A DNA stretch of 64,000 nt from Sphaerisporangium siamense (GTDB taxonomy: Bacteria; Actinomycetota; Actinomycetes; Streptosporangiales; Streptosporangiaceae): assembly GCF_014205275.1 (NCBI RefSeq), contig NZ_JACHND010000001.1, forward strand, positions 3,162,001-3,226,000, read 5' to 3'. A model generated the notes under the pieces. That model ran no database searches, was not told the origin of the DNA, and was given only the letters and a program-made list of their open reading frames with translations. This document shows positions 15,355 through 17,731 of the stretch, one piece after another. A program made the position numbers and the translations under genes. How positions within the stretch are numbered: position 1 is the first letter of the stretch; every line of letters begins with the position of its first letter.

Positions 15355-15630
15355 ATGGATCAGGATGAATTGGAGTCGCTGTCGCCCAGGGAGCTGCACG
15401 ACAGGGCGGTGCACTACGCGGTCTCGCACGGCGACTTCGGCTTCCTGTGGGACCTGCTGAAGGCCATCCCCGCCGCCGAGGCGGCGAGCGGCCACGCCGA
15501 CGAGGCCGCCAGCGACCTCAGCCGGGTGTCCGCGCTGCTCAGCGACGCGGTCGCCTCCGGCGAAGGCGATCTCGGCGAGGCGCTCCGCCCCGTCTACGTC
15601 GCGTACCTGTCCAAGCATCCGGACGCCTGA
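15355..15630 (+). CDS. hypothetical actinobacterial small protein
   Basis: This 91-residue acidic, Ala-rich and mostly helical protein has no signal peptide or membrane segment. GGGGTGA lies five bases before the ATG, and third-position GC is high, which supports coding. The first 35 residues look like a folded helical hairpin (LSPRELHDRAVHYAVSHGDF). I do not recognise a family. The OsmC-like gene follows 30 bases later on the same strand and may be cotranscribed. Confidence 0.7.
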   Translation: MDQDELESLSPRELHDRAVHYAVSHGDFGFLWDLLKAIPAAEAASGHADEAASDLSRVSALLSDAVASGEGDLGEALRPVYVAYLSKHPDA

Positions 15631-15660: not shown

Positions 15661-16059
15661 ATGGCATCGGTGAACGTTGAGCGAACAGACGGCGGCTTCG
15701 TGGCGCGCAACGCCCGCGGCGCGGAGGTCGCCATGGGCGGCGGCGACGACGAAGGGGTCTTCACCCCCGTCGAGCTCCTGCTGGCCGCGGTGGGCGGCTG
15801 CAACATCGTCACGGTGGAGCCCCTCACCGCCCAGCGCGACCATCGGCTCGTGCGCCTGGCCATGACCGTCCAGGCCGACAAGGCCGAGTCCAACCTGCTC
15901 GGCACGATCACCATCACCTACGACGTCGAGCTTCCCGAGGGCGACGACAAGGCCGACGAGGTGTACCGCGCGGTGGCGCGGCGGGTGCACGAGAAGTACT
16001 GCACCGTGAGCCGCACCCTCCAGGAGGGCGTCGAGGTCGCGCTCGAACTGCCTGAATAG
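15661..16059 (+). CDS. OsmC-family protein
   Basis: This 132-residue protein has the OsmC/Ohr fold layout: an N-terminal beta sheet (GFVARNARGAEVAMGGG), then a helix with the first cysteine in the AVGGCNIVTVEPL segment and a second cysteine near EKYCTVSRTL. The paired Cys residues fit thiol peroxidases that reduce organic hydroperoxides, although many OsmC relatives have no proven activity. The length is normal. It could share a transcript with the small gene just upstream. Confidence 0.88.
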   Translation: MASVNVERTDGGFVARNARGAEVAMGGGDDEGVFTPVELLLAAVGGCNIVTVEPLTAQRDHRLVRLAMTVQADKAESNLLGTITITYDVELPEGDDKADEVYRAVARRVHEKYCTVSRTLQEGVEVALELPE

Positions 16060-16663
16060 CCGCCTGCGCCTCCGGGTCCATCCGTACCCGGTCAACCCCT
16101 GGGACTCTGACCGAATCTATACCCTGCGATGACGAGCAGCTCAGGCCCCGGTATGTAGTGTTAAGGCAGGTCACAAGGGATGCGACCGGCATCCTGCGGG
16201 GCCTGCGAGATCTTTTCTGAAAGGACGCGGTGGGGGACCGCGTCCGTCAGCGGGACCGCCCGATGCGTTTGGGGGAAGGCATCGGCGCCGGACCGTTTGA
16301 GATCGGGGCCGGGCAGGCGGGGGACTGCCCGGCCCCGACACATGTCCCCACCTTTCGCCCCCGTGCCCCCTCGCCGATCCCCGTGGACCCGACGTGGCCG
16401 TCCTCTCGCGCGACGGCATCCCGGGCACGTGACGGCGTCCTCCTCTTTACTTACCGTCTTTACCCCCCGCGCCCCTGGAGCGGCGCGGGGGCGGTGCGGG
16501 TTACCGGCAGAGGATGCCCGAAACGCGAAGTTCGTGGTCAAGAGGTAGATCTTCTAATACTTTTGGGGGATAACGTTGGCTTTGTCCTGACTAAGTGGGT
16601 AAGGTCTTAACCCAAGACGGGCGGTGACCTGGTCTTCAGCCCGAAGGCCGCCGCCCGCCGTCG
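16060..16663. other. non-coding stretch with four GC-rich hairpins
   Basis: I see no convincing gene in these 600 bases. Three hairpins follow each other, each with five consecutive G in the loop (16223-16245, about 16259-16284 and 16305-16336). A fourth has stem CCCCCGCGCC (16464-16473) with GGCGCGGGGG (16482-16491). The first could end the OsmC transcript, and the last lies upstream of the riboswitch. A -10-like run, tcttctaatacttttggg, precedes the riboswitch near 16550-16567. Confidence 0.6.
16223..16336. ncRNA. candidate structured RNA: three hairpins with G5 (or C5) loops
   Basis: Hairpin 1 is GGACGCGGT / ACCGCGTCC around GGGGG. Hairpin 2 is CCGATGC / GCATCGG around a 12-base loop containing GGGGG. 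Hairpin 3 is a perfect 12-bp stem, GGGGCCGGGCAG / CTGCCCGGCCCC, around GCGGGGGA. On the minus strand the loops show CCCCC, which recalls actinobacterial C-rich-loop small RNAs. The strand and any transcription are unknown. Confidence 0.4.
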
Positions 16664-16791
16664 AGTCTCCAAGGCCGTACGTGGCCGAGGGGAGCCGGGG
16701 ACCCACGTCCTTTGGGGTGAATCCGCGCCAGCGGTAGGGAGCTACTCCAAGCCCGAACCCGTCAGCTAACCCGGTAGACGTGATTGGAGAG
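16664..16791 (+). ncRNA. c-di-AMP riboswitch (ydaO-yuaA type)
   Basis: Several blocks of the actinobacterial ydaO-yuaA consensus are seen in order: GGGGAGCCGGGGACCCACGT, GGGGTGAATCC (16714-16724), GCGGTAGGGAGC and CCCGAACCCGTCAGCTAACC. A closing stem pairs tctccaa (16666-16672) with ttggaga (16784-16790). In actinobacteria these elements usually precede genes for secreted cell-wall enzymes and switch them off at high c-di-AMP. The next gene, 317 bases downstream, is a secreted barrel-like protein, which fits. Confidence 0.88.
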
Positions 16792-17107
16792 GAGACCGAG
16801 TGGAGCACCCCACTCCGCGGAGCCCATTCCCCGGGCTACCATAAGCCCCGGATCTTCGCCGTCAGAAGCGGCGGACAAGTCGGCTCGTAGCAGCCGTCCA
16901 CCGGGCGACACCTTCGCGCTCGCCCTCTGTGACGTCGTGGCGAGAACGCCACAGCCCTACTTGCACCTGCTTGCACCACACGGAACGCGCCGGCCCGGCG
17001 ATGGGCGCACTGCCCCGCCGGCCCCCTGAGTGACAGCGCTTTCCACCCCCGTCCCGGCGCGGCCCGGAGTGCGGCCTTTGTCTTCTGATGAAAGATCCGA
17101 TCTCCCC
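16792..17107 (+). other. leader between the riboswitch and the secreted protein
   Basis: This long untranslated stretch has no convincing gene. It holds GC-rich self-complementary pieces such as CGCCGGCCCGGCG near 16990. The expression platform could be a terminator here or blocking of the ribosome site, and I cannot tell which. Confidence 0.4.
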
Positions 17108-17731
17108 ATGACTTCTTTCGCTGTACCCCCTAACTGGCGACCGATGTCCTGTATCCTCGGCGCCTGCCTCGCAGCCACCACCGCCTTCGGCGCCACCACC
17201 GTCGCGGCCCACGCCGACGACGCCACCCCCACGCCCGCCGCGACCGTCCAGGTCGACAAGCCCATCCTGCTCAAGGGCTCCACCAAGGCCTCCTACTTCT
17301 GGGACGACGCCTCCGGGCGCATGGGCGACACCGGTCTCCCCGCCATCGGCAAGCCGATGCAGAAGGGCCTGTTCGCCAGCCCGAGCTGGCCGCTCGGCAC
17401 CGAGGGATACGTGTTCTACAAGGGCAAGAAGGCCCCCTTCTTCATCGGCGACCGCGGCCCGGGCATCCCCTCCAACAACGGCGTGATGCTCGACATCGAC
17501 GGCAAGACCTTCGCGGAGCTGACCGGCGGCGCCTTCAGCGACACCACGCTCACCGTCAAGGGCTTCGACGCCGGCCACATCAACGTCGAGTACGTGATCA
17601 CCAAGTGGGGCGACGGCGTGGGCAAGAAGAACTACCCGGTCCCGTTCTCCACCGGCGCCTGGGGCGTCCGCGACGCCAAGCCGGCCTCCCCGCCCCCCAC
17701 CCCCGTCACCCTCGCCGGCGAAGGCAACTGA
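17108..17731 (+). CDS. secreted double-psi beta-barrel-like (RlpA/expansin-related) protein
   Basis: The protein has 207 residues. The ATG at 17108 gives a signal peptide with a hydrophobic core at about residues 15-30 and an AHA-type cleavage site; an earlier in-frame GTG at 17030 would bury it. The mature domain (about residues 45-190) has short beta strands with FIGDRGPG and LDIDGKTFAELT. These look like the GDRGP and LDLS segments of RlpA/DPBB proteins, which bind or cut cell-wall glycans. Its location behind a c-di-AMP riboswitch supports a cell-wall role. No enzyme activity can be claimed. The Pro-rich tail ends just before a GGAGCCCC/GGGGCTCC hairpin terminator. Confidence 0.75.
   Translation: MTSFAVPPNWRPMSCILGACLAATTAFGATTVAAHADDATPTPAATVQVDKPILLKGSTKASYFWDDASGRMGDTGLPAIGKPMQKGLFASPSWPLGTEGYVFYKGKKAPFFIGDRGPGIPSNNGVMLDIDGKTFAELTGGAFSDTTLTVKGFDAGHINVEYVITKWGDGVGKKNYPVPFSTGAWGVRDAKPASPPPTPVTLAGEGN

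Follow-up and report, generated by a model that had tools for sequence, protein, structure and literature searches.

A small-RNA gene with its own promoter, a leader and three hairpins displaying the sequence GGGGGA lies, with near certainty, at positions 16156-16341 (+) of the window, the 64,000-nucleotide stretch of DNA analysed here (G000:C1:3162001-3226000 of the 8.5-Mb genome of a Sphaerisporangium species, Streptosporangiaceae). Its putative product, called here the G-loop RNA, belongs to a family whose loops are constant and whose stems covary. With moderate confidence, we propose from this analysis that it acts as a stand-alone sponge of the 6C RNA, and perhaps also of other C-loop RNAs, in the manner of RosA from Bacillus subtilis. 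The eight contigs that matched the core pattern of hairpin 2 all come from Sphaerisporangium.

The G-loop RNA gene and its fold

The gene is situated between an OsmC-like gene and a c-di-AMP riboswitch (Table 1). The three hairpins with GGGGG in the loop that a preliminary description had placed within 16223-16336 were all recovered there, on stems that do differ from one another. Single hairpins with a G5 loop are expected by chance in this GC-rich window (8 observed, 7.8 expected from 100 dinucleotide shuffles, maximum 17), and three of them on one strand within 114 bases were seen in none of 200 shuffled strands. In hairpin 2 (H2), a GA/A internal loop interrupts the basal stem (16251-16258/16289-16295). 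The folding z-score of the plus strand is -3.07, a value reached by 1 of 200 shuffles; that of the minus strand is -3.49. In the structure predicted for the window species, each G loop keeps four or five G unpaired, and the A of the loops of hairpin 1 (H1) and H2 is paired. Hairpin 3 (H3) is probably the terminator of the RNA, devoid of a U tract. A Rho-independent end had also been suggested on the minus strand at CCGCGTCCTTTC; it found no support, as the scan for terminators gave no minus-strand candidate.

Table 1. Position of the G-loop RNA gene, its predicted elements and its neighbours in the window
Feature	Position	Strand	Basis or remark
91-aa protein	15355-15630	+	no Pfam match; 38 of 52 loci have it upstream of the G-loop RNA
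OsmC-like protein	15661-16059	+	PF02566, Pfam 60 bits; upstream neighbour, synteny anchor
Upstream promoter element, presumed activator site	16107-16124	+	family consensus TAGnCCGAAAATCnACC; 51 members anchored on the -10, within-genus alignment
ATGACG element	16129-16134	+	start of ATGAC precisely 27 nt upstream of the -10-like hexamer
-10-like hexamer TAGTGT (family TAnnnT)	16156-16161	+	followed by GCAGGTC; family listing, within-genus alignment
Inferred G-loop small RNA	16168-16341	+	putative start 7 nt after the -10, putative end after H3
Leader with CUUUU before H1	16209-16222	+	in the family, CUUY 10-17 nt before H1
Hairpin 1 (H1)	16223-16245	+	stem 16223-16231/16237-16245; loop GGGGG, then A
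Hairpin 2 (H2)	16251-16295	+	upper stem 16260-16266/16279-16285; loop GUUUGGGGGAAG
Hairpin 3 (H3)	16303-16338	+	14-bp GC-rich stem 16303-16316/16325-16338; loop GCGGGGGA
c-di-AMP (ydaO/yuaA) riboswitch	16666-16796	+	74.6 bits (Rfam scan of the window)
Secreted-looking protein	ORF 17030-17731, probable start 17108	+	no Pfam match; downstream of the riboswitch

The sequence upstream of the hairpins is conserved as well. The motif ATGAC-N22-TAnnnT, which is no part of the covariance model described below, precedes 46 of 52 members and occurs 46 times in total in the 494,624 bases of the loci, both strands included. Within the 140 nt that precede H1, 47 of the 52 members contain the sequence CAGGT, and in 42 it is in register with the hexamer and with ATGAC. 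Among three members fetched later, the motif is present in G331 and absent from G326 and G336. A simple sigma-70 scan predicted no promoter at the locus, because the -35 is not canonical. The constant distance of TAGnCCGAAAATCnACC...ATGACG from the TAnnnT hexamer points to a regulator of the promoter. For the leader, 44 of 51 members have CUUY ahead of H1, versus a mean of 1.7 and a maximum of 6 in mononucleotide shuffles, a count that ignores kinship.

These elements also bear on the strand. Over the 36 base pairs of the 51-member alignment, G-U pairs number 88 versus 23 A-C mismatches, in an alignment whose fitting to the model leans towards G-U. Together with the conserved promoter, this excess argues that the RNA is the plus, G-loop strand and not a 6C RNA. 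The covariance model of 6C (RF01066) gave no match up to an E-value of 10 over 16060-16660, and the scan of the window with Rfam 15 detected only the c-di-AMP riboswitch and a tRNA. A 6C RNA encoded by the minus strand was consequently rejected on the lack of an Rfam match, the promoter and the G-U excess.

The region had been considered to be without coding potential. An ORF at 16180-16548 (+) does overlap the gene, but it was rejected as a translated gene: the length of the RNA varies within the genus from 170 to 176 nt by differences that are not multiples of three, and the context of the ATG is lost in two loci (L012 and L013).

Distribution and conservation of the family

A first search with DNA sequences matched 20 of 60 genomes, of which 13 were counted, the 7 others being short partial matches (28-44 bases, E-value about 1e-4). 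The element was present in all 10 other Sphaerisporangium genomes searched and in two other genera of Streptosporangiaceae. The covariance model R1, built from 13 sequences, detected the G-loop RNA in 139 of 341 genomes of Streptosporangiaceae, distributed among 23 of 68 genera, and the order-wide search gave 139 of 345 genomes. The model R2, built from 51 members, recovered the identical 139 genomes with a best match per genome of at least 62 bits; the G loops being part of both models, extreme losses of the loops would escape detection. From a set of 70 matches, 18 (27.9-36.6 bits) were dropped, as they lie on the opposite strand at the positions of true members. In a class-wide sample of 394 genomes, 16 were matched, 15 of them from Streptosporangiaceae. 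The lone match outside this family (G589, E-value 9.6e-4 among the 394 genomes) displays neither G loops nor promoter and is a false positive, so that no credible G-loop RNA was found outside Streptosporangiaceae in this sample. The genome G347 contains a second, weaker copy (L126, 2547-2648, minus strand) which has lost the G run of H1 and has no typical promoter; it may be a decaying paralogue.

In 41 of 52 loci, an orthologue of the OsmC-like gene precedes the G-loop RNA gene in the same orientation, in 38 of them at a distance of no more than 500 nt, and in 50 of 52 loci either this gene or that of the 91-aa protein lies upstream. Downstream, the orthologue of the protein at 17108-17731 was found in 22 of 52 loci (12 of the 52 have less than 2 kb of downstream flank), which makes a cis role for one downstream gene unlikely.

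The 51-member alignment, which was fitted to the covariance model and thus favours the structure, shows compensatory changes in 31 of the 36 base pairs; 93.2% of its cells are paired, and none of 500 shuffles was as good. The signal is abolished when the pairing partner is shifted by one to three columns. A MAFFT alignment of 13 members (A4) goes in the same direction: 96.6% of its cells are paired, compensatory changes affect 9 of the 36 pairs, and none of 500 shuffles was as good. Each of the three stems, described beforehand as unrelated, is held by compensatory changes.

The loops behave differently from the stems. Among the 156 hairpins of 52 members, 155 contain a run of at least four G and 141 a run of at least five, while the bases of the stems vary. 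Of 155 hairpins, 154 have an A directly behind the G run, and all nine loops of the three members fetched later (G326, G331 and G336) read GGGGGA. In H1, this A is kept even where the base flanking the G run on the other side is also A. Three loci (L093, L094 and L101) possess four G5 runs, one of them between H1 and H2. The proposal of an RNA selected for constant loops on changing stems is therefore strongly supported by 139 genomes, by the constancy of the loops and by the covariation. Comparative folding in relatives had been recommended and brought out this covariation around constant loops; loss of the loop in close relatives, named as the observation that would speak against such an RNA, was looked for, and the loop was found to be kept.

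6C RNA as a candidate partner

The small RNA 6C, or B11, is conserved in actinobacteria and has no known chaperone. In the window species it is encoded elsewhere in the genome (L024, 1501-1584 on the minus strand, G000:C1:660632-660715), and the C runs of both its loops are predicted to be unpaired. This copy has 15 C in the second loop; of the 51 copies parsed, 49 have 6-8 C there. A 6C RNA was detected in 97 of the 98 genomes with a G-loop RNA that were tested (18 of 18, then 79 of 80 taken from the remaining 121), the exception being G317, a draft of 960 contigs. This co-occurrence is uninformative, since 9 of 10 genomes of the family that lack the G-loop RNA also gave a 6C match, two of these nine scoring below the cut-off of Rfam.

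For 162 contexts comprising GGGG and the following A, the mean duplex energy is -14.8 kcal/mol with loop 2 of one typical 6C, -13.8 kcal/mol with loop 1 and -9.6 kcal/mol with what we take to be the anti-Shine-Dalgarno (anti-SD) string of the 16S rRNA. Of the 162 contexts, 126 favour loop 2 over loop 1, and all favour it over the anti-SD. Any RNA with a C tract would nevertheless pair with the G loops as well as 6C. Of 57 loci of 6C, 54 have U and two have A immediately before the C run of loop 2, and the last locus (L044), unread by the pattern, also shows U; for loop 1 the counts are 55 with A and two with U, one of the two being the misread L044. As the loops of 6C barely vary, a comparison of co-changes is limited to two genomes, G326 and G336, where loop 2 is ACCCCC rather than UCCCCC (L138 and L147, respectively). 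Their G-loop RNAs still have GGGGGA in all three loops; A-U pairing with loop 2 of 6C is thus under no visible constraint there. With this invariant A conserved where 6C has changed, the partner may also be another RNA or a protein. The genome G331 contains two tandem copies of 6C about 200 bases apart (C1:1099832-1099907 and 1100034-1100109, plus strand), one of which (L141) has its loop-1 C run interrupted by a T, and a third, weak 6C on another contig.

Known RNAs provide a precedent for such a pairing. As reported in sections of PMC8216469, RosA (S345) of B. subtilis was experimentally shown to be a sponge of the C-rich small RNA RoxS and also contacts FsrA; it is a stand-alone small-RNA gene like the G-loop RNA, and its three G-rich regions are complementary to C-rich regions of small RNAs. 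The likeness concerns the way of working: RosA comes from another phylum, and the G-loop RNA carries its G runs in covarying hairpin loops and has 6C as its proposed partner. RsaI (RsaOG) of Staphylococcus aureus is similar in that its G-rich regions bind the C-rich small RNAs RsaG, RsaD and RsaE, as stated in the same sections (PMC8216469). It differs by an additional C-rich region for mRNAs, which has no counterpart in the three conserved loops of the G-loop RNA. Ms1, another intergenic structured RNA of actinobacteria, is listed for Sphaerisporangium and relatives and adjoins a HAD hydrolase gene in most species, according to extracts of PMC9130861. The identity with Ms1 was rejected: none of eight neighbours in the window is a HAD hydrolase by Pfam (two of the eight have no Pfam match).

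For 6C itself, parts of PMC10470900 report that either C-loop of B11/6C of Mycobacterium abscessus suffices to repress a reporter with a tract of six G in its 5' UTR, and parts of PMC8628891 that overexpression of 6C inhibits the growth of M. smegmatis. The repression of the G-tract reporter, the precedent of RosA and the rigid G loops lead us to take a sponge of 6C as the most likely function. Three G tracts in rigid loops are what a decoy of 6C should look like, and the G-loop RNA is predicted to offer several accessible G-rich segments complementary to a C-rich small RNA of the same cell. In this scheme we infer transcription, pairing in the cell, the direction of the effect and the intervention of a regulator. 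Transcription would start near 16168 from the conserved, probably regulated promoter and end at the GC-rich H3. The folded RNA would expose GGGGGA on three hairpins, with an extra G run between the first two in some genera, and these loops would resemble the G-tract ribosome-binding sites recognised by the two C-rich loops of 6C. Loop-loop pairing would involve GGGGG and CCCCC and, in most genomes, GGGGGA and UCCCCC of 6C loop 2. Once sequestered or sent to decay, 6C would no longer repress its mRNAs when the promoter is active. Of the two functions suggested in the preliminary description, a sponge or a C-loop RNA like 6C, the former is thus retained as the best remaining mechanism, whereas a 6C-like RNA of the minus strand is set aside by Rfam, the promoter and the asymmetry between G-U and A-C.

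Alternative readings and significance

The evidence that selection acts on the sequence of the loops would also suit a direct regulator of mRNAs, whose GGGGGA loops would anneal to UCCCC(C) tracts in several mRNA leaders, in the manner of other small RNAs with several loops except that G replaces C, or a partner among the C-loop RNAs that is not 6C. With such a partner, it would be explained why the A after the G run persists where loop 2 of 6C has lost its U, and the differences between genera in the flanks of H2 exceed what 6C alone requires. However, three to four similar loops fit a titrating RNA, a conserved partner with C loops is at hand in nearly all genomes tested, and regulation of mRNAs would require C-rich targets close to the start codons, in a region where the sites for ribosomes are rich in purines. 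We consider this reading unlikely, though it is the strongest of the competitors. The titration of a protein able to bind GGGGGA in hairpin loops, on the model of CsrA/RsmA and the GGA loops of RsmY/RsmZ-type RNAs, appears still less probable. The layout is that of RNAs of the CsrB/RsmZ type, where similar loops are repeated on different stems, and an RNA-binding protein would account for an A that is kept in H1 where it is unable to pair, as well as where 6C has changed. Against this, CsrA (PF02599) is absent from the genome of the window species, on which ground its titration was rejected (3 of 14 control genomes were matched), and we know of no other protein of the CsrA kind in actinobacteria.

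Two further readings are very improbable. Loops mimicking Shine-Dalgarno sites could serve as a decoy for ribosomes by binding the 16S anti-SD, as GGGGG pairs with CCUCC through one G-U; this pairing is the weaker one in every context when compared with 6C loop 2, and the invariant A mismatches the anti-SD. Equally doubtful is a cis element or a chance structure, whether part of a leader, of a 3' UTR or of a 6C-like RNA on the minus strand. The intergenic position between the OsmC-like gene and the riboswitch and the good folding of the minus strand would agree with it; the element nevertheless has its own conserved promoter and changing neighbours, the strands are asymmetric and the window lacks a match to 6C, so that covariation, the G-U/A-C asymmetry and the conservation of the promoter largely refute this reading.

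Some features common to 6C and the G-loop RNA deserve attention. Both are actinobacterial and bear repeated homopolymer loops, including one on a terminator-like hairpin, although those of 6C (RF01066; B11 in mycobacteria) are C-rich instead of G-rich, 6C occupies a separate locus and the G-loop RNA has no Rfam match. Inspection by eye reveals, in many of the same genomes, a leader AAAGCUUUCUUCUGAA at a similar distance before the first hairpin of 6C and, in many genomes of the family, a basal stem CGG-GA-CC / GG-A-CCG common to both RNAs. The sequence GGGACC precedes the first loop in 37 of 57 loci of 6C. In genomes without G-loop RNA, the leader CUUUC of 6C is often missing, again by eye (G016, G017, G018, G020, G031 and G033; present in G011 and G012). 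The shared leader and basal stem could reflect a common ancestry or a common binding factor. A bolder extension, which we regard as rather improbable, treats the G-loop RNA and 6C as mirror images: the former would derive from a 6C-like ancestor by an exchange of C loops for G loops, and a multi-loop kissing complex of the two would set the activity of a global actinobacterial regulator.

As far as Rfam release 15 and the literature searches reach, the family is new, while the principle proposed for it is already known from Firmicutes. In a search of the literature that was not exhaustive, neither a G-loop RNA of Streptosporangiaceae nor an RNA acting as a sponge of 6C was found described. The literature on noncoding RNAs of Nonomuraea gave no description of a G-loop RNA, and one of these studies counted its reads on annotated genes only. 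With at least 139 members and a very strong covariation signal, the family can be described whatever its function. If the proposed sponge is correct, the logic of C loops and G loops known from RoxS and RosA in Firmicutes exists in Actinobacteria too, and a dedicated G-loop sponge would explain how 6C is switched off.
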